Of a stretch of 64,000 bases of DNA, positions 31,497 through 45,800 are shown piece after piece; within the stretch, counting starts at the first letter, position 1, and each line of letters starts with the position of its first letter. Source of the DNA: Prorocentrum cordatum. Taxonomy: Eukaryota > Sar > Dinophyceae > Prorocentrales > Prorocentraceae. Location: positions 176,335 through 240,334 of the forward strand of contig CAUYUJ010015938.1 of the NCBI GenBank assembly GCA_963575745.1. Reading direction: 5' to 3'. The translations under genes were made by a program, and so were the position numbers. Under the pieces are notes generated by a model. It ran no database searches and was not told the DNA's origin. It saw only the letters and a program-made list of their open reading frames with translations.

Positions 31497-33787
31497 CTGC
31501 AGGGCGGAGGAGGCTCCAGGGAGGAAGCACCGGATGGGGTATGTCTCTGGTGGGGTGGGTGTGGGACCTTCCGCCGGAGCTGGCTCATTTCCCCCCGCCC
31601 CCTCCTCCTCCTCTCCCCCATCCTGGCAGAGGAGCGGAAGCGACACAGTGTTCCCGCGCACATGCTGCCACATCTTCCCAAACCAGCAGCAAGACCACCA
31701 CAACCAACACCACCTCCCCCTCCTCCTCCCCCTCCTCCTCCTCCTCCCCTTCTTCTTCTTCGTCTTCTTCTTCGTCTTCTTCTTCGTCCCTCTCCTCCTC
31801 CTCCTCCTCCTCTTCCTCCTCCTCCTCCTCCTCCTCTAAACCCGCCTCCACCCGCTCCGACAGCACATGCTCATTCTCCCTCCCGCGGATCCAAGGGGGG
31901 GGTGATGATTTTCACATTCAAACAAAAAACGGGCCCTGACCAAAACATGCTCGGATCGAAACAAAACCACGAGGCTGGTCTTTAGTCCGTTTTTGGCCTC
32001 GGAGAGGGCCTTATCAGCCCCAAGATAATAATCACACCTGGTAAGACCCCAGTCAATGGATGATTTGAAAACTAGTCATACAGTTCTTGAGATCGATTGT
32101 GAGATCGATGATGAGATCGATCTTCTAATCGATAAAGGACGAGTGTATTGTCGATCGTGAGACCGAGTGGAACCGATTCAATGAGATCGATAGTGACATC
32201 GATCGCGAGATCGCTCGTGCGATCTCTAGTGAGATCGCTTGCGGGACCGATGGCGCGATCGATAAAAATTGGAAATGAGATCGATGCTGAGACCGATCTA
32301 TATGAAGATTGATCAGGAACCTGGGAACCTCGCCGCTCACCGAAATCAGCCCCAAAACCGGGAACCCAGAACCGGGAACACGGAAACCCAGCGTGCGACC
32401 AAAATCGGCGGGATTTTTTTGCAAAATACTTCAACCTCCGCTAGGACCCCTTCAATGCAAGCGCTGATAAGGGGAAAACGACTCGGGGAAAAAATCTGCC
32501 CTGGGCAAATGTTGGGACTTTGGGAGACCGCGTATGGAAAAAAATAGAACACCTCATGCCCAAGGAAGAGTCCTGGACCCCAGGGGCCTTCCCCCGAGAC
32601 CAGCTCTTCCCCCATTTTTTTGCTCGACGGTCCCGTGGCCCGCGGAAGAGGCCGGGGAGCCCGACACGGGCGAACAAATGCAGGACCCGTTTCCCACAGA
32701 ACCCGCAGCATCCGCGCTGGAAACATACTTCTGCTGCAACTAGACCACTCTCTAGAAAACGCGTTTCCTGAACAGGCTCACCCCCCCCCAAAAGTCGGGT
32801 CGACGACGTGAAACACGACGAAAAGGGAACCTATCCCCACACGGGGGGCAGTCGGACAGCGGGGCCAAGGCTTGCCCAGCGGAGTCGGGGACAGGTCCAA
32901 CAATGCGGAATGGCGACGTGGGTTCTGGTTTGGGCTGTGATGCACTAGCACGCCCCCCGAGCAGCCCGGGGCGGTCTCAACGCCGAAACCATGGAGCGCG
33001 GCTCGCCCCAGGAGGGTCGCCGGAAGCGGCGCCAGGGTGTTGATGATGGGCCGACGTTCCACCACCAATACCGTATGTAGGGGAGGAGGGAAGAGCAGGA
33101 GGAGGGACACCCATCCAGAGGAGGGGAGGTCCGAGGTCCACCAGCACGCCGCGAGCACGCGCGCGAGCGGGCGTGGGCGTTCCTGCGGGCTCTGGCTGCG
33201 CAGGACCGCAAGGACACAAGCCGCCGCCGCCACCAGAGCACGGCAAGATTGACAGAAAAGGCGACTTCGAATTTTAGGAGGAGGGAGGAGGAGGATGGGG
33301 GGGAGAGCGGGGAACTACGCAAGACCGAGACCCCGAGACAGCCTTTGGACATTCGAGCTTCTCCTGGCTCCAACCCTCCGCCTTGCCGCGAAAAAAGGCT
33401 AAGGGTGTGCTCGGGGGTAAAGCATCGAGGACTACTGGCACGGAAAAAGATGAAGCGTGCTATGCATCAAATCAATAGCTAGGACCTGGGACAGCAAGCG
33501 TTCACGAGATACCGAAGAGAAAAGGTGAGGAAGGAAGGTGGCCAAGTCCGTCTCGCCATGGTCGCCAGAAAGCCACGGTCGAACTCTTTGGGCCGCTTCT
33601 CGCAGGACGGGACAAGCTGCATAGCGTCTAAGGTCATCACCCCCACTCTCACAACAACATGGAAAAAACTTGGGCTCCCGGACGATATCGGCGCGTAGTA
33701 TTTCAGCTGTTAAATCAACTCTTGGGGCAGGCGGACATCACAGAGCTGGGGAAATATTTGGAGGCAACATGTATCCGTTTATATATT

Positions 33788-33822
<35 letters not shown>

Positions 33823-36800
33823 GCAGAAGGGTATCATGTTTGGGGCCGCGGGGCCAACATGTCTTGGGTGGGGGTGGGGGTCATTCTAAGGTCCTGGTTA
33901 AGCATCTTTGTGCTGGTGGCCTGAACTTGTTTCCACTGGCAGGTGATCGGACGGTGCACCCTGGAAAACTCGTCATACAGGTTCCACGTCCTCAGGCAGG
34001 GGCTGTGCTTGCCGCGCGGGCTCCACCGCCACGCAATGCACACTTCGTCGCTCTCTGCGAAGCTGGCCAGCTCTTGCTTCAGCACATGGGACCGAGGGCC
34101 TTTCACAGCAGCACGGAACAGCGAGGTATGGGCGACGATATAGAGACGACGAACCTGCACATTGTGATCCCGATCCTTCAACTGGAAGAGAGTCTCTGGA
34201 GGGGAGCTGAAACGCGGGGAGTTGGGCAACCTCTGGAGACATTTTCCGCAAGAGCTACCCACTTCGGAGGTTCCCCATCTGCGCAACGCGACTGATGACA
34301 GGAAGGCCAAACATGTTATTAGCGGCGATGCTGTGCGACAAGCCCTATCCAAGCTGCTTGACCTGGAGGGTTTTTTAATGAGCGTGTTGATCACCTGCCT
34401 CCAAGACGCATCTGAACCCCCAGTGCCAATGTAAAGCCCAAGATATTTTCTGGCGGCCAGGGTCGCGATCTCAGAGACGTCGACCCCCAACTCAAGAAAC
34501 TCCTGAACGACAGACACACAGAAGCCGGGGCTCGGGATCACGAGCACGCACTCGCTTCTATTCAGGACTAGACCAGCAAAGCGCCCAGCAAATGCAAGAT
34601 CGCAGAAGGCGCGAGGAAGAGCAATGAGAAGGTCCTGGCACGCCACTCCGATGCCATCCGCGGAGGCCCCCCAAGACGGTCGGAAGCCCCGAACGAATCA
34701 GCCTGAAGCGCTTCAGGAACGGGTTGATGCAGATGCAAGGAATAAGGCCCGAAATCGGACACCCTTCTTTAACGCCTCGTTCCACTAATGCAGAGATTTG
34801 CAGTGCTCATTCTGATGTGAATGGAAATTTTCACACGCACGCATGGAAATACTCATTATCATATTGAAGTAATAGGGAGCGGACGGCACGTCAAACATGT
34901 CGAGGAAGGTTTAAACCTTCGAGCTCTCCCCAAAATAAAGTCGCGGACGACGCTGGGGAACGCCGCCTTTATGTCGAGGAGGGCCGCGCCGCGCCCCGGG
35001 CTGATATCCATTATCGCCACTCGCGACGTCGCAGCATCGAGCAAGAACAGGCTGTCTAACAACTGACGGCCTTTGACGAACCCCTTTTTCCGGCACTTCT
35101 CCGCAGTGTCCTTCCACTGCCGTGTTGAGAGCGAAACCGGCGCAGCTGGTGACGGACTTGTTGTCGGCGTTGCTCGCCTCTCGCAGGCGGGCGCGCGGGC
35201 CTGGGGGTCGGCTCCGCCAGGGCACTCCTTCGGGAAGAAGGCGCCACGGGACGCGTTGAAGTCGCCTGGCAACTGGCCAGTGATCATGGGGCGCTCGCAC
35301 AGGCGGAATGCACTGCCCTGACCTATGTCACCAGCAGCTTTCCACGCGGCGTCGGGGGCCCCATCGGGCCCTAGAGACGCGCCCTTGTTCCGCCCCAAGA
35401 TGTCCTGGAACTTGGCCTCTTGGAACGACCCAGGGAAACCGAGAACCATCCTGAGCAAGATACTCCACGGGGTCGGCGGGGATGGAGTCAATATCCTGAC
35501 ACGCAGCTTTACCACCTGGAGTAGGAGCAGTGGCATACCTGAACACCTCCCCCCAATGTTCGGCAAGTTGTTTGGCGCATTCACTGCCGTCGTCGAAGTG
35601 CTGGCCACTGGGACTGGTGACCTGCGCCAAAATGACACGACCACCAGTGGCTCTCCAAGCTCGTGGGATTCGCCGCGCTCGCTGGATAGCCGCAGCGCAC
35701 TTCTGGGTAGCGGCGTCCGCGGTAGACACTACACCCTCTCTGGGCAGCAGCTTCGCGCCGTTCGCAGAGCTTGCGCGTGCGAGCGGCGAGGTGCAAGTCG
35801 AAAGCATGGCGACCGGTCCGCGCGCAAAACTCAGAATCGAAAACGCTCCCAGGGAGCTGCAACCACGAACTGCCTTCCGAGCCTCATGGAACCCCCCCGA
35901 CCGAAAATCGCGCATAAGCTTATTAGTGCAACAGGCGATGTTATCCCCCAAGCTGTCGGCACCTTTTTTGCAGATGTTTCCACGAACCTGGCGAGCAGCA
36001 CAATGGCAATTTCACATTCACGGCGCGCAGCTGGCCGACGAGCGCGTCACCTAGCACGTCTAGAACGAGCATGTCGGTAACCGTAAAAGCGAAAACCTCG
36101 CGCTTTGCAACCCAGTCGGCAATCGGGGTAGGCCCAGAGGGAGACCACGGACGTAGGGCGACGACGACGGGGGCGTGATCGGAGGGTTGCTGGAGGTCGG
36201 AGGCGGGCCACGCGACGCCAGTCCTGGGGCGAGCATCTCAAGTCCTGAGCGGGAAGGCTGCAATATGTTCGATCCAGCTGGCCGTGGTGCCACCCAGAGC
36301 CCCGGGACAACCGGCGCGCATCGCCGCCCTGCAGGATCTCACCCAGGAAGGGGAAGGAGGAGAAGACGGAGGCGAGGCGGTTGGTGGCTGGCCCATCACG
36401 GCCAGACGACGCACTCACCCGAGACCCCCCGATCTCTAAGAAGGTAACGTCCCCAAGCATAATCAAGTTGGCTTTCTGTGGGTCCAACGTGCGTTTGATA
36501 TTCGCGAAGATGCCGCGCAGCTCGCGGGCGCTCCGCACTGGGTCCAACTGCGCATTCTTGTGCGACAGCGAGCCTCGGAAGCCCTGCAAGTGCAACGCGC
36601 TGACGCGGCCAGGGGTGACGTGCTTAAATCAGCAACCTCCCATTTTGCAAGACACTGGTTAGAGACAAGAAGCAAGCTGCCGCCGACTGACGGCGAGTCA
36701 CAGAATGTTCCAAACGCACGGTGCGATCGAATTTCACGTTTGATACGTGGCATGTCTCCCTCCCCTCCGCGCGACCCCTGAATCCCAAAGACCTGGGGGC

Positions 36801-39800
36801 GGCGAATCAGAGAACGAACATGGTCGGCCCCACGTCGGAAGCTGGCTTGATTCGAACGAACAGAACCGATAATCGTCTGGATATTTCATGAGCAGGTGCC
36901 AAACTGGCAGTCGGGGAGATGCGGAAACTCGCGATTGGAAGAGGAGGTGGAAGAAGAGGGATCTGACGTGCAGCTAGCAGAAAATACTACAATATGCAAG
37001 GGACGGCGGCAGCAAAGCAGCAACCGCGAGATCATTGCCCTCGCAAGCCCCCTCTCGCGGACCGCGGGTATCACTTGCAGGGTGCACTGGGCCCTCCCTC
37101 CGTGACCGGCTCAACGGACGAGGCTGGCCCCCCTCCAGCTCAGCGACGACGTCAGCAGCTGCAGCGTGCACGCGGAAGTGCCCTGGGGGAACGTCCTAGC
37201 GCTCCAGCTGGGCAGCGGTGTAGGCGGCGTTGAAGCGGCGCTGGATCTCGTCGGCGTTGAAGTTCCACAAGTTGAGCTCCTCCTGGACGGCGACGCGCTC
37301 CCCGACGTGAGCCGAACGCTTCGCAGTCTTCACGATGGTGTAGATGCCGCGAGGCGTGACGGGCATCACTTTACCTTTGAATCCGTTCACTCCTCGCTTG
37401 CACTCGCATGTGCACTCAGGGTGCGCCTTCAGGCGGCCCAAGGTCGGCTGGTAGACACGACTGATCTGGCGCTGGCGGTCGCGAGCGTCGAGCGGCAGAT
37501 CTTGACGGATGCGTAGCTACTGAACGTGAACATCTCTCGGATCGCTCCAATGGAGCGAAGCAACATTCACAATTTCTGAGAACTGGTGGGCAGCAGCCAG
37601 GTCCTGAACACCAGCTTGTAGTTCTGAGCGGCCTTGTGAAAGATCGGCTCTACGTCCTGCAACAGAATCTGGTTGGCGTTCAAGAGATGTTGGCAGTGCG
37701 CCTCGCGCGCCGTCTGGTGCACAGGGCGGGGGAAGGTGCCCGCGAACCGCACGAGCGGGTTGGTCGGCGCCTGGCCTCCTCCACGCGGCTGCGGCACAGT
37801 GCTCGGCCCTGTGCGTGTCGACGCAAAACTGGCACCACTCGATGGAGGCTCCTTCAACTCATTCGGCTCTTGCTTGATGCCCTCGAGCTGGACATCTATG
37901 GCGGCGGCAACGGCTTCAGTGACAGTCTTCTGGCACACGCGCTCCACCTCGGTCAACCGAGTGTGGACGCTGCGCGGGTTGGAGTCGTGCGTCTGCAATG
38001 CGGATCGGAAATCGCGAATCTCCAGAATCATGGACTGCTCCATCTTCGCGATGCCTGCATTCATGCCACGAACCTCTGCCAGCAGATCTTTCATCCAGAA
38101 CGGCGGGCCTTGACTCCCACCACGGGCGCTCGCGTCACTGCCGCCACTGCGGCTGCGACTGTCGCGCCTTTCATCTGACGAACTGTTCCGAACACTGTGG
38201 GCTCGGCGGTCACGTTGGCGACGTCCTCCGTGACGGGCTGAGGCTGTACTCCATGTCGGCGCGAGACTTCTCAGCGCGGGTCTTGCGAGCAGAGCGGCAA
38301 CCACTGAAACGATGGGGACGGCGGCAGTACACACAGACAACATGTGTGACTACAGCGGGCAGTAAAAAGGGAACTGCACGTGCCTTGCTCGGGCGAGCAC
38401 CTGTGGTCACGAGCTTCGGGGGCCCACCTCGGCACCTTGAGCCAGAATGGCTTGAGCCAAAATGGCTTGAGTCAAAATAGCTACGGAGGGAGGAAGAGGA
38501 GGAGGAGGAGCAGGAGGAGAAGGAAGAAGAAGAAGAGCACCTCCCCATCCTCCCTTCCCTTCCGTCCTACCCATGGTGCTGGTGGTGGTAGTGGTGGCGG
38601 AGAAGCGGCCCACCAGCTGAGACCGCACCAGACCTCGCGGGTGGACTGTGGAGGCCAGCTGGGGCTGCCTGGGGGCATTGCCTGTGCGCGGATCGGAGCC
38701 TTGCCCTGCGCGATCCGCTCGGGCCTCCCGGCCCCCGGAGACGCAGCCAAGGGCCCCCGACCGCGGGCGCCCGCCTCCGCGCCGCCGCCGCGGCGCGGCG
38801 GCAAGAACCTGCCGTGCTGCCCCTCCTCCTGCGCTGAGGCACGCTGCGAAGCGCGCAAGCCGCCTCTGCTGACGGCCCAGGGGGCCCCGCGAGGGTAAGG
38901 GCCCCCGATCGTGGGCGCCCGCCCCCGCGCCGCCGCCGCGACGGCGGCGGCGAGAGCCTGCCGTGCTGCCCCTCCTCCTGTGCCGAGGCACGCCGCGAAG
39001 CGCGCAAAGTCGCCTCTGCGGACGGCCCAGGGGGCCCCGCGGGGGTCCCCCCAGGGGCCGAACGTCGGCGAAAGGCAGGAGCGCAACACACCAGCCGTCC
39101 TGCGTGCTGTCACGACTCCAGAGGGTCTGGGCCCTCAACGTCCTCATTCCTCTGGGCGGGTGGTAGTAGGGGGGGGGGGGGGGGGCCTACAGAGGGGGGT
39201 ACAGAAAAAAGGGCCCCAAAGGGCCGGCGGAGGAGGAGGAGGAGGAGGAGGAGGAGGAGGAGGAGGAGGAGGAGGAGGAGGAGGAGGAGGAGGAGGGAGG
39301 GGGAGGGAGGGAGGGAGGGGAGGGGCGCGCGGACCGCACGCCACCAGCAAGAGGCAAGCCTCGAGCTGGTGGTCCAGTTCAGGCATAGCCCAGCACACGC
39401 AAGGGCGTGGGCCGAGCGAGAGGGCCGCCCCGCCTGCCTGGCCTCGTCGCACACCAGCCTCCTCAGCGCCGAGAGCACCAGGAAGATGCACGCGTATGCG
39501 GCGGGGGAGGGGGAGGCGACGGGCGACAGACTACAAGGGCAGCCCAAGAAAAACCAAACGAGTTTAGTCAGAACCCGAGCTCGCTCCATCAGGAGCAGGT
39601 TCGGGCCCACGGGCCGCTTCCAGCAGCCTCAAAGAAGCGGAAGCACGGCGGAGCTCCGCGCGGTCATCGTCGCGCTCAGCGGCGCCAGCAATCTTCACGC
39701 CCGTTCTGGGGTGACACCCACGCTCCAGCCGCCGAATGGACATTCTCTGATTGGCAGCTGTGCTCGGGACTTTGGATCTCCCCTGGCATTGCTGCGTGAG

Positions 39801-42800
39801 GTTTCGCAGCGAGCTGAGAGAGCCATGAGCCCCGCACAGCTTGCAACAGTACACATGCAGATGACGAAAAACGTCGCGCCCAAGGTCCCGAAAAACAGAA
39901 AACTCGTCCGACGGCTCGGGCTCAGCCACAGGAGTCGGGGGACCTTGGACCTCATCAGTGCACACACGCTGAGCTTCGTCAGCAGCAGCCAGAGCAACCC
40001 TCGCCGCTTCCAGCTGCGCGGGCCTAAACGCAGCCCCAAACTCACGAAACCACTGGTCGCGCACGTGTCGCTGGATCGGTGATGGTAAACAGTCACGATT
40101 GTCTCTACTCGTGAGCAGGCTCTTAAGTGACTCCAACGTGCGAGCGACACGGCCACAGCTCCTGCACTTATAGGTGCTGGTGGCCTCACAGCGAAACAAC
40201 ACATGGCTAGTGACCGTGACCTTAGGAGGGGCAGGGGCTCTCAAGAGGCGGAGGGAACGATCAGGGTCAACTTGCGTCCATGTGCCAGACTCGAGCAACC
40301 GTTGAGCAGCCCATGCAATGAACCGCACCGTGGATTTATGATATTTTAAATCCCCTGACACAGCTGCGCAAAAACCCTCAGCCAGCGTGTGAGAGCTGGC
40401 CCCTAGTTTGGCGAAGAAGTCAGCCCACAGATTCCCAGCCCAACTTTTGACACACAGACCACGCTCCAACACGTCATCGAAACTCAGATGGGCTGGGAAC
40501 CAAGAAAACTGGGGGTGATTAGACTTAAGATCAAATATGGACCTCCAGATCGAGGCATGCTTGGACATGCCTTGGGAAAGATGCTGGCTCCAAGAATTGC
40601 CTTCTCGCACAACAGCCTGGAGGTCCGATACAATACTCTGATGCTGCGGGTGAAAAGCCAGACCCTGCCGCACAGCCCAGCGTTCTGCACGACCTATGGC
40701 CTGACGCTCACCTGGGAGCGCTCCATATACGGCCCTCAGGGGAAGCAGACAATCAAATAACTGCACAACGCCCCAACCAGCTCTGGAGACCTCTGGGACC
40801 CCAGAGTGATAGCAACTACCATCAGTGAAAGACTGAGGGCCCCAGGACCCAGAGACGTCCCCAAACTCAAAAACAGGTGGGTTGGCTAGCGGAGCGGGAA
40901 TATTGGTGGGCAAGGGAGGAATGCCATAAGTTAAATAATTAGAGTGCACATCGGGCTCCCCAGTTATAGAGGCCCGAGACTGGATCAACACGCGCCTATG
41001 CCTAGCCAGGGCCTCAGGGACCTCGTCACCCAAAGCGTCAACCCCGTCGTCGGTGATGAACTTAGAGCAGGCATACCACACGTGTCCGTACGTGCCTTGA
41101 GGAGCGGAGCAGGCGAGGCACTCAGGTAGTACATCATATTGCAGAGCAGATAGTGCAGCAGGTAGCGGAACCACATTCCCCCAGACGGCAGCAAGGGCCC
41201 CAAGAGCCCGCTGGTCTTTTACGGCACGTATACCATTACGTAGTGCACGAAACCAAGGCTCCCCTTCTGGAGGGTCAGTGTTATAGAGGTGCTGCTGCAA
41301 CCGACGTATCTGCCACCGCTGCACCCCTTCGATAATCGCAATTCGCACATCACTGGGACACACCACCAGCAGCGAAATATCTGTACCAAGATCGCTGCGA
41401 AAAGTGTGGGCATTGACCATCGTCCAGCCTATGCGAAGCAGGCTGAGCCACACCGCCGACAGCGGACCTCGAGCCTGCTGCCAAGTAGGGTTGTCGGACA
41501 TGATGTCTCTCAAACAGGTCCACGCACGTTGAAGTCTCGACAACTGAACTCTTCCGTCCCAGACGAACGTGGCGAACTTGACACACACACAAGTAGTGGA
41601 GTCGTAGATCGGGTCGTATAGCGGATCGGCCTGCGTCAGCAGATACGAGGTGATGCCACCGTGCTGCTTGGCACCTGCGATCGTAGCCGCAAGCTGCCTC
41701 AAATACTTCAGCGCAGTGTCTGAGATGCCCGACACGGAACCACCGTGCCCAGCCGTTGGGAAAGCTCCAGTCCTCCAAAGTCGGGTTGCACGCTTGCCAG
41801 TTGCATGTTTCAGTGCAACGAACTTGTCACGACGACATTTGAGAGCATGTAGCCTTTTCTTCTCCTGCGTGCGAACAACCCGACCAGCAGCTAATTCATG
41901 CCCGAGATTTCTCATCCATTTACGAACAGGTAGATGCAGCCGAATAGCCATCTTCGAGAAAACCTTCCGAGCAACTTTGTTCCCTGCTATGAGCCCCGAC
42001 TTTTTGACATGGGAGTGAAGCCCGAGAACCTTGGCATCTTCGGTGAACACTTTCACAGCACGCTCCAGGAAACGCACATCACGAGGATCCGAGGTGACGA
42101 GCTGAATCGAGATGTCGTCGACGAGGGCTCTCGGTGTTATACAGGGCGAAATGTCATTGAGTCTACGCACAGCACGCAGCGTGAGAAGGAAAAGCATGCC
42201 TGTCGCATGATTGCACCCAGCGAGGATGCCTTGATGCGAACAGAACTGCAGCGACAAGCTGCCGAAAGCTCGAAGACGCCGTGGCTGCCTGTACAGATCC
42301 ACCAGCATCCAAGCTAGCCGCATTGGAAAGTGCAACGCTTCAGCCTCTTTCAACAGCTGCTCCGAGTGAACCATTTCGAAGCATTTGATCATGTCTAAGA
42401 GGACAGATATTGAAATATCACCGACTAGCGCAGCCATTTCGGCAGCAATGTTGTGGGCAAACGCACTGTCTGAGGAACTGTGCCCACGACGAGTACCCCA
42501 AACAGCGTGGCAGTCATTACGCTCTTGCCAGTCGAAGGTGATGGGCTTGCGAACTTTGCCCCAAACACGGCACAGCAACGAGACAAGAGCGATCAGACGA
42601 GTCCCACCATCTGGTTTGGCAAGACGGCACATCTCGTTACATACGCGCTCTCTAGGCCAGGCTAAATGCAGCTCGCACAGGTTAAAGAGTTCAGCAATCG
42701 CCGAGAAGGCCGGCCTAGGCAAATGGATTAAAGCTCTCGGATGAATACCCATCATGCCTCCAGCAGTGCGAATGGGGTAAGTGTGAACGGCATCCTCCAC

Positions 42801-45800
42801 CTGAGCGGCCGTGATGGGCGGCAGCATGGGCCAGCTGGTGGACCCTCGGGGAGACTCAAGAACGGAACAGCCGTGGGTCAACCAAACCTCCTTCCAGGGA
42901 ACCAGTTCAGCATCGGCCTGCTGGTGGGGTGCCTCTCGCGCCTGGTTGCTTAAAACCTCTTGGATGGCCTTCACTTTTGAGAACCTGTGAGCCTTCGAAG
43001 CATTAGCCTAATTTGCTCACTAAGATGTTCTCTGGCCTTGCCTAAGTGTTTGGCCCAACCAAGAGCTACAGCCCAGGCACGTGCCTGCGGATCCTTATAA
43101 GTCCTCCTTGTGGGGGGAGTCCAGACAAGCTTTTTGAAGTGGACCTCCAGAGGCCCGCTGCGGCCAACATAGGCCTCGGCGGCTAAGCCAACACGGTCCC
43201 ACCTGGCAGCCAACTCTCTTTCCACCCCTTCGAGGACGAGATCCCAAAAATCAGCGACCTTGGCTACAGAGTCAACTTGCGGGGCGGCGGTCGACAAAAC
43301 CGCGTGCCACGGGTATATAGGAGGTCTAGCGCAGCCAATGGGAGGGGTAGACGGGAAAGCTTTCGGGACCTTGGCCACCCGAGCCCAAACCGGCGCCTCC
43401 CGAGCCCTCAAAGTAAGCTGGACGGGGAGGTGAGGGTAGGTGGTGGCAGCCTCCAACACACACGTGCGGGGGTTAAGCTTTGGCGCAAGCCAACTGCTAC
43501 AAATGAAATAATCGATGTGCGTGCCAGGTGAAACCTGCCTGCAGGTGGGCGCCTCAGAAACGAAAGCCAGTCCGCCAGCAGCCGCGATCCGAGGGAGGGA
43601 GGGAGGGAGGGAGGGAGGGAGGGAGGGAGGGAGGGAGGGAGGAGGGGGGGGTACAGAAAAAAGGGCCCCAAAGGGGCCCTGTGGGGTCCCTTTTCGGAGC
43701 CAGCAGGGGGCCCAAAGAGGCCCTTTAAAGAGCTCCTTTGGGAATCGAAGGATTGCAAAAAAAACAAGGATTGCAACCCGAAGGATTGCAAAAAAAACAA
43801 GGATTGCAAAAAAACGAAAGGGTTTTTTGCAATACCCGAAGGTTTTTTTTTTTTGCAATCCTTCGGTTTTTTTGCAATATCTCCCCCTCCCCGATGGAGG
43901 TCGCCCCGCCTTACCGCCCGCCCGCACCCAGCCCTCCCCTCCTTGACTACCTACCAGACCACCCCAGCCCAACCCGAAGACCCGAATTTCGGGTTGGGGG
44001 GGGTATGGGTTACACATGTGTTTTTTCGATGTTTCCCGACCCCCCCCCACTGGAAATCGAGGGTAAATCTGAGCCTTCGGGTTGGGTTGGGGTGGTTTGG
44101 TGGGTGGTGACCTCCTCCCTGCCATCCGTATTTATATCCGAGTCTCCGCGGAAGCAGGCAGTGCTCAAAGCGATCAGACTCGGGCTGCATGTTGTGAGAA
44201 TCGCAAAATTGCAAAGTTGTGCATCGTCATCGTACTCTGCTGTCGGTATTCCTCCCTGCCTGGTCCATCCACGAGAACCGCTGCTGCAGGTCCGCGAGGA
44301 TGCTGTGCAGCGCGGCGTGGAGCTGCCGGGTCGGCGGGTCCAGGTGCCCGGCGACGAGGGCCTGGCACAAAAGACCGCGCACCGCGGCGAGCAGAAGCAA
44401 CACGCGGCCTCTCCGTCCTCCAAAACTGAGCCAAGACGAGGACAAAGTCGGGTGAGGATACATCGAGAATCTCCGAGATCTGGCGGTTCTGGAGGGTGCA
44501 TTGGGCGCCGCGGCCTTCTCAGAGCGTCCTGGTGGAACGTTATGAGAGCGGTCTGGAACGATCCGGAACGGCTTTATAATCGTCGTAGCCCCGTCCGGTC
44601 CCCAGACGTGCTCGCGTCGAGAACGACCCCAGACGGCACCAGCAGACACGAGGGCCCACGATGGCCCCGAGGCGTCCCACAGAGCCCCAAAACGGCCGAA
44701 CAGTGCCCCAAGAGGCCCTCAAAACGACCCAACAGGACCCCGTGACAAGCCCAATGCGGCCTGAGAGTAACCCGTGAAGGACCCAAGAGAGACAAGAACA
44801 ACGGACGCAGAACGAGGCAGAAACATAGGGGGACTCGCAACGGGGGGACGGAGGAGGGGGGGACGACAACGAAAACGAAGGAACACGCCCCGAAACGACG
44901 CGGATAAGCGTGTCACATGTTGCGGCTATTGCACGGGCATGGGCGACGATCTGTCGCGTGGCACGGTTGTCTTGGCGGCGCTCTAAAACTCGCCGCGCCG
45001 AAACATGCGATATCGCAGTGCGCGGGACTTGCCGCGAACACATCGGCATAACGTAAACGCTCAATTCTCTACACGCAACTGCAGCGCGTATGATTTGTCA
45101 ACGAAGTCGCGCCCTCCAGGAGCCGACCGGTCTGTCCATTCTGAGATGCGCGCAATGAGAAAAATAATAAACACACAATGCAAAAAGAGAGAAGGTTAGG
45201 GAGGGCAAAGGGAAATGGCCGGGGGAGAGGCGAACCACAAATGATCACCGCCCAAAAGAAGGTGGCAAACGCAAGCGGCGAACAAACAAAGGGAACGACA
45301 TTCCAATTTCTTGGCGCGCCGCCAAGCAGGGAAGGGGGCGGGGGGCCCGCGAGCCCAGAAGGAACAAGCTTGGCGGCATGCTAGACGCTACAGAATGCCT
45401 CGCCACGCGGAGGCGCTCTGCCCGAATGGACGAGTGCATCGTCGCCCAAAATCTGCGCAATCACGCCGCGCGAAGCATCGCTGCGAGGGGGCAATCCGCA
45501 CCGTGCAAGACACGTGCAACTGACAAGCGAAACGGGCGTTCCGCGCCGCCAGAAACTTAGTGCTGCAATGCCGCAGCGGCCACGTTCTTACTACTGCGAC
45601 CTCCCCTGATCAGCGCGCGCGTGGGTCGTGGCAAACGGGCGCCGCCGCGCGCGACCGCCACTCGGCCTCGCGAAAGCACATTGAAGGGGATCTCCGCGGG
45701 GAAAGCGCTGCAAAAGGCCAGGCTGCAACCTTTCGAGAATACACTGCGTCATGCCAGAAACACTCGCCAACGTGAGCCGCAACGTAGAAACAACCGACAG

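Follow-up and report, generated by a model that had tools for sequence, protein, structure and literature searches.

Spliced leaders preserved as relics on recycled genes (DinoSL relics) were reportedly described by Slamovits and Keeling in 2008. Among LINEs, Kibi, Koshi and Mino are APE-type elements that are specific for microsatellites. In the available part of one source, recycled dinoflagellate genes begin with a full leader, followed by 15-nt remnants that were cut at the AG of CCGTAG and can stand several in tandem (PMC3229502). Other microsatellite-specific LINEs, in the portion of the literature available, are the HERO families and the (TG)n-specific Togen (PMC4640811). SymbioLINE-Dnmt and other Symbiodinium LINEs are also dinoflagellate LINEs with an ORF upstream of the reverse transcriptase (RT), and their description, in the part available, does not mention 5′ leaders, unlike in the family reported here (PMC5890265). 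In the accessible sections of two further studies, nearby leaders and LINEs were taken as hints of viral gene integration (PMC10235124), and the retroelement mediating dinoflagellate retroposition was left open, with LTR elements favoured (PMC6050394). No report of leaders at LINE 5′ ends was found in the open-licence literature, which was partly accessible and is weak as evidence of absence. Relic leaders and microsatellite-specific LINEs are each known; what is new here is that the two occur together, with a leader that would serve as a 5′ end open to renewal.

Here we describe a LINE family of Prorocentrum cordatum that carries the host leader at its 5′ end, probably because its RNA is trans-spliced before being copied back (we put the probability at about 0.8). 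All conclusions on leaders and LINEs were drawn from the DNA sequence of one genome. Like the recycled DinoSL genes in the available part of their description, the family shows a full leader and tandem 15-nt remnants cut at the AG of CCGTAG. It differs from them in that the message is a retrotransposon, that one to six units are a trait of the copies examined, that joints at inner AGs reset the arrays, and that insertion is mostly into microsatellites. It resembles the microsatellite-specific LINEs in lying inside a simple repeat, but here the repeat is (CCT)n or (AGG)n, a leader stands at the 5′ end, and the repeat may double as a splice-acceptor tract. The copy that was followed up lies in a 64-kb window (the whole stretch of DNA that was analysed, 64,000 nt), with these features:

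38488..38538, minus strand: imperfect pyrimidine tract, (CCT/CTT)n, lying upstream of the leader array
38466..38487, minus strand: outermost and presumably newest leader, 21 nt with 2 substitutions, plus a T at 38487 in agreement with the first nucleotide of DinoSL (22 nt)
38451..38465, minus strand: second leader, an exact 15-nt remnant (CCATTTTGGCTCAAG) beginning after the internal AG of CCGTAG
38436..38450, minus strand: innermost and presumably oldest leader remnant, 15 nt (CCATTCTGGCTCAAG) with 1 mismatch (CCATTCTGG)
37567..38343, minus strand: ORF1-like frame of 258 aa, with 147 matches genome-wide
38304..38305, minus strand: internal AG (ATCGTTTCAG followed by TGGTTGCC); the leaders of locus L031 are attached exactly at the homologous place
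34862..36885, minus strand: decayed pieces in several frames, weakly similar (tblastn) to leader-headed loci
33089..33110, minus strand: approximate 3′ end of the element, where homology to L031 (its 3′ part is L064) ends inside a C/T-rich stretch
about 38486-33090, minus strand: the decayed LINE as a whole, with leaders, ORF1-like frame and decayed pieces

The three leader units abut head to tail without gaps (38486-38436, minus strand). The outermost unit, CCGTAGCTATTTTGACTCAAG (38486-38466), covers 21 of the 22 leader nucleotides with 2 mismatches. An earlier note on this DNA had placed leader fossils at 38436..38487 without giving a strand; the coordinates were right, and the strand is minus. 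It had also described one full-length and two 15-nt leaders in tandem, which is correct for the array, whereas "full-length" is true only with two substitutions. The array stands before a LINE ORF1, as the same note had said, with 92 nt between the leaders and the ORF1-like frame. A chance origin of the array was rejected. The 21-mer (at most 3 mismatches) occurred in the 64-kb window only at the array, in two overlapping placements, and in none of 100 shuffles; the 15-mer (at most 2 mismatches) matched three times, always in the array, against 0.12 matches expected. The pyrimidine tract at 38488..38538 may have been both the target of insertion and the polypyrimidine tract of the trans-splice acceptor.

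The window copy is a dead, old fossil of the process and not a working example of it, because its coding pieces lie in different frames and the bases with the start codon, which relatives have just behind the TTTCAG site, are missing. Its ORF1-like frame is shorter than those of relatives (e.g. an open frame of 486 aa in L033). The decayed pieces matched L015 best (tblastn, E 5e-12) and also L010, L018 and L012, loci in which an endonuclease and/or an RT was recognised. In the leader-headed loci, the matching pieces follow in the same order and at a spacing behind the leader similar to that in the window. A Pfam search of three window pieces from the leader-headed LINE named no domain. A CCT stretch near 33,300 was considered as the 3′ end of the element and rejected as internal, since the comparison with L064 extends the homology to about 33,090.

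A second LINE lies directly upstream (39564-44125, minus strand), with a 1136-aa frame containing RVT_1 (39564-42974). A leader was looked for at this element and none was found. C/T-rich simple repeats lie near both of its sides (about 43595-43650 and 39227-39320, minus strand), so that it looks like a 5′-truncated insertion of another LINE group.

We searched the 4.13-Gb assembly with the window ORF1-like protein (11,510 first-look candidates, 147 scored) and obtained 147 matches. The best 30 of the 147, including the window copy (L030), were read for leaders, a choice that favours copies complete at the 5′ end but gives the copies on which a 5′ feature can be assessed. Outer leaders were counted with at most 4 mismatches and each inner unit with at most 3. 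Leaders were present upstream of ORF1 in 26 of these best 30 loci: one leader in 11 loci, two in 10, three in 3, five in L031 and six in L034. Measured to a single homologous position in ORF1, the distance from the end of the leaders was 89-336 nt in the 26 loci (median 220), not the random distance that the earlier note had listed as counter-evidence. The outer unit was a full 21-nt leader at the joint with the microsatellite in 26/26 (at most 4 mismatches; L044 reads CCGTCG). Inner leaders were reduced to the 15 nt that follow the AG of CCGTAG in the window copy and in 14 other loci of L031-L059. Among the four leaderless loci, L051 adjoins an assembly gap, and L043 and L054 are 5′-truncated, as they start inside the family 5′ region right behind a (CCT)n tract; L058, a distant copy with only a short CCT-like tract, is less clearly so. 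All 26 loci in which the family 5′ end is present and readable therefore carry a leader. A general lack of leader remnants in other copies, the other outcome that had been set in advance against the idea, was not seen among these 30 loci, and the claim that the recycled message is itself a retrotransposon agrees with the arrays at these loci. Leader arrays are a trait of the copies examined, in one genome.

It could be argued that the relic belonged to another gene and came by chance to stand before an unrelated LINE fragment, in a window that is dense in repeats and has an apparently 5′-truncated LINE directly upstream of the array. However, 26 of the 30 ORF1 loci show this order with comparable spacing, and together with the constrained distance between leader and ORF1 this refutes such a chance neighbourhood, which we consider hardly credible.

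Beyond the ORF1 family, the exact 21-mer occurred 14,218 times in the 4.13-Gb assembly (7201 on the plus and 7017 on the minus strand) and its reversed control 0 times. At 1,202 places (622 and 580) an exact 15-nt repeat followed the leader. We sampled the next 20 listed places (contigs C1-C3, 8 kb each), in listing order and not at random; these loci are young, since their leaders are exact. An RT profile was seeded with the RT of the adjacent LINE in the window and trained on the same 20 loci, further fetched loci and the window. It recognised an RT on the leader strand, 2.4-4.4 kb behind the leader, in 14/20 (70%, 95% interval 46-88%) and on the opposite strand in 0/20. In the 8-kb stretches of L013, L017, L021, L022, L026 and L027 the profile revealed no RT. 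Eight further leader loci of 3 kb were too short to show one. Two frames starting at or near the leader were open to the end of the stretch, with at least 2325 aa (L029) and at least 2331 aa (L020). Pfam reported Exo_endo_phos and RVT_1 above the cut-off in L029, L010 and L012, and in L029 the endonuclease and the RT shared the long open frame (at least 2325 aa). In L020 RNase_H was found, with Exo_endo_phos and RVT_1 below the cut-off. Two frames of L022 gave no Pfam domain, and seven further frames of leader loci gave only YL1 in L026, below the cut-off. With an APE endonuclease and an RT downstream of the leader, the leader-headed relatives are APE-type non-LTR LINEs. A protein search, in which the 8000 candidates sharing most words were scored, returned one relative, from Prorocentrum cordatum.

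Some of the sampled loci had additional leader-like sequences. In L019 and L022 a degraded, near-complete 22-nt leader was seen by eye behind the new one, as would be expected of an acceptor AG within the repeat next to it, which would add 22 nt instead of 15 nt per cycle. L006 had a shorter leader-like stretch just behind its first leader. In L013 two leader-like sequences (1001-1021 and 2623-2643; one exact, one with 2 mismatches) were 1.6 kb apart, with similar flanks and no microsatellite; they may represent a tandem gene or a unit like the SL RNA.

Leaders were also scanned for in viral and prokaryote collections. Three contigs (L060-L062) were found, none of which tests the connection between LINE and leader. 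L060 (IMGVR_UViG_3300045993_001077), which is AT-rich and giant-virus-like, had two exact leaders on the reverse strand (2746-2766 and 2893-2913), 147 bp apart. Behind the leader at 2746-2766 lies a frame of 267 aa; a viral genome may here have taken up dinoflagellate cDNA with its leader tag, or the contig may be chimeric through assembly. L061 and L062 are bacterial MAG contigs filed under Dehalococcoidia that contain the exact dinoflagellate leader; they are probably contaminant dinoflagellate DNA. In L061 the leader was preceded by (CAT)n, as in L025.

The sequences next to the leaders were mostly microsatellites. Among 28 exact leaders (eight loci and the 20 sampled ones), 14 followed a pyrimidine tract (C/T content of 90% or more over 40 nt), 7 followed a purine tract, and the remaining 7 followed neither. 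Among the 7017 exact leaders on the minus strand, (CCT)4 was present within 20 nt upstream of 2378 (33.9%), and four AGG units of 889 (12.7%). The background at other positions was 0.34% (CCT) and 0.60% (AGG) in the 20 loci, and 1.2-1.6% in the window. These gapped-pattern counts refer to the minus strand, in the printed rows of which each leader appears once, because the plus-strand counts were inflated by overlapping starts. In 8/14 RT-bearing loci, the same repeat was found on the same strand on both sides of the element. As for the other six, L012, L023, L024 and L025 had no repeat on both sides, and in L020 and L029 the 3′ end was beyond the fetched stretch. Insertion into microsatellites is a strong preference and not a strict specificity. 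None of the 14 RT-bearing loci contained a run of at least 12 A in its fetched stretch of 8 kb (which in L020 and L029 does not reach the 3′ end), so an L1-like 3′ poly(A) tail was not encountered there.

Behind purine repeats, too, a T preceded the leader in 6/7. This T is therefore part of the 22-nt leader, and the copies extend as far as the cap site. No sequence in front of a capped leader can derive from the message, so the flanking repeat should be target DNA.

These flanks bear on whether the family inserts into spliced-leader RNA genes, like SLACS/CRE and NeSL, where a LINE also lies beside a spliced-leader exon and the leader is target DNA. LINEs with such targets do exist, according to the part of the source available (PMC4640811). 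In the present family, however, the sequence upstream of the leader is mostly microsatellite and not SL-gene DNA, the 3′ flank is that same microsatellite in the eight RT-bearing loci mentioned above, and the point at which the leader is attached varies with the positions of AGs. The leader as part of an interrupted SL RNA gene is contradicted by the microsatellite flanks. The leader seems to be brought in by the RNA, and the endonuclease of the relatives is of the APE type. We regard insertion into SL RNA genes as extremely improbable.

The most direct evidence for a change in leader number came from L049 and L050, which have one and two leaders, respectively. Behind the leaders they differ in 8 of 2436 bases (99.67% identical). 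They are on different contigs, and their 5′ flanks have no similarity. They are separate insertions that differ by exactly one 15-nt leader.

In L031 and L038 the leaders were attached further in than in relatives. In L031 the joint corresponds to the position at which L032-L035 retain CTTTC[GT][CT]TTCAG/TGGTTGCC (the slash marks the joint); the relatives read CTTTCGTTTCAG (L033 and L035), CTTTCTTTTCAG (L032) and CTTTCGCTTCAG (L034) there. The array of L038 joins at the place where L039-L041 keep GACTCAAG/TGG, and L036, L037 and L039-L042 read CCCCGACTCAAG there. In both cases an AG in the 5′ UTR of the relatives immediately precedes the joint, which argues for splicing rather than slippage. 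By its sequence, the site that corresponds to the L031 joint (TTTCAG) is a classical pyrimidine-rich 3′ splice site, and its AG is retained in the window copy at 38305-38304.

A tree was built from 29 copies (L051 was left out because of the gap), with six leader labels, the three leaderless copies forming one of them. The labels required 13 changes, compared with a mean of 14.9 after shuffling; a value as low as 13 was reached in 31 of 200 shuffles. Leader number is hardly more clustered on the tree than by chance, which fits a fast turnover and is no test alone. The window copy and L034 were sisters, with L031 next to the pair. The innermost mutated remnant of the window copy, with its flanking 5′ UTR, is common to L034. 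Since these two are sisters, relics pass through replication. Such a pattern would be expected from serial trans-splicing.

Replication slippage might also have produced the arrays, as a 15-bp minisatellite that expands and shrinks after the capture of a single leader. In its favour, the arrays consist of short tandem units that keep one register. A substitution is common to two adjacent units of L031, and the young arrays of L039 and L055 show no difference between the 15 nt of their units. In contrast, no two units have the same 15 nt within the array of the window (three units) or within that of L034 (six units), and the outer unit is the full leader at the microsatellite joint in every one of the 26 loci. 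Slippage does not account for L049 and L050 being separate insertions, and it cannot produce attachments to the 5′ UTR that are exact at different AGs in L031 and L038. We thus consider slippage as the source of the arrays very unlikely. The earlier note had read at least three rounds of trans-splicing, reverse transcription and reintegration from the three leaders of the window copy; there may have been three, and slippage could have given single steps. The last G of the leader was changed (CAAG to CAAA) in two L031 units and in one unit of L034, suggestive of a mutation-prone site.

Trans-splicing before the RNA is copied back would connect the arrays, the 15-nt register, the one-leader difference, the AG-exact joints, the microsatellite flanks and the domains of the relatives, which are observed features, in one cycle. 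The element would sit within a (CCT)n microsatellite, and a transcript starting upstream would take in the (CCU)n tract. Together with CCGUAG of the inserted leader, (CCU)n would form a polypyrimidine tract and a first AG, i.e. a 3′ splice site. A new 22-nt leader would be spliced on at CCGUAG, with 15 nt of the old leader remaining. Alternatively, a later AG in the 5′ UTR would be used and the old array would be removed, which resets the count. The order of such events in each copy is a reconstruction from the sequence. The leader-capped RNA would then be translated; the leader may be the means by which the LINE is translated, as also suggested in the earlier note. The encoded APE-type endonuclease and RT would finally insert a copy, complete to leader nucleotide 1, into another microsatellite. 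Use of the first AG or of a later one would explain the 15-nt register and the variation in leader number without further assumptions.

If (CCU)n acts as the acceptor tract, more arrays are predicted behind (CCT)n than behind (AGG)n. Among the matches listed, counted by hand up to contig C92 for (CCT)n and up to C558 for (AGG)n, 15-nt arrays were found behind 8/35 and 4/45, respectively. The difference is in the predicted direction and not significant (P = 0.12). Arrays do occur behind purine repeats (e.g. L017), so a CCT tract is not strictly required. A plain pattern with CTCCTCCT directly before the array had 152 matches genome-wide.

The inserted leader might act mainly as a promoter, through its TTTG motif, with the arrays as by-products. 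A proposal of this kind was made for retrogenes by Song et al. in 2018, in the part of the paper available (PMC6050394), and every insertion would then carry its own motif. However, transcripts starting inside or behind the relic would lose the old leaders, a point that the accessible text of Song et al. itself raises for genes (PMC6050394), and arrays of five or six units as in L031 and L034 would hardly arise. As the main function of the leader, a promoter seems distinctly unlikely; it may be an added role in copies with a single leader.

LINE RNA should be a preferred template of the LINE's own enzyme, as is established for LINEs. LINE messages might therefore be expected to be recycled like any abundant mRNA, as Slamovits-Keeling recycling without a special link between leader and LINE, and the 15-nt register is the same as in recycled genes, as far as the available part of their description goes (PMC3229502). 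But a leader was present in all 26 loci with a readable family 5′ end. For a LINE, being recycled is its replication, and the leader thereby becomes one of its regular components. Recycling without such a link overlaps with the cycle proposed here and differs from it in emphasis more than in mechanism; on its own we consider it rather unlikely.

In a stronger form of the proposed cycle, trans-splicing by the host would be an obligate stage of the LINE. The element would have no fixed 5′ end or promoter of its own, and any read-through transcript would be cut, at the (CCU)n-CCGUAG acceptor built by the insertion, into a capped, leader-headed messenger. We advance this form tentatively, at somewhat less than even odds. 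If it is true, the preference for (CCT)n would have been favoured by selection because such targets offer polypyrimidine tracts ready for use, and the intact leader copies of this genome would mostly mark the 5′ ends of LINEs rather than retrogenes.

Which retroelement is behind the DinoSL-tagged retrogenes is an open question for dinoflagellates, according to the available part of PMC6050394. As the LINEs described here appear to copy their own leader-headed RNA, they may be natural candidates for making such retrogenes. As 14 of 20 exact leaders had an RT behind them, LINEs may also inflate counts of retrogenes that are recognised by a leader in front of a gene model. Keeping a complete and translatable 5′ end in each cycle is a general problem of LINEs, and here the host would supply it in trans. 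Judged from the genomic copies, the RNA-joining machinery of the host (trans-splicing) seems to be part of the life cycle of the element, with the leader apparently gained or swapped on copying, and the number of leaders would be a readable trace of past cycles.
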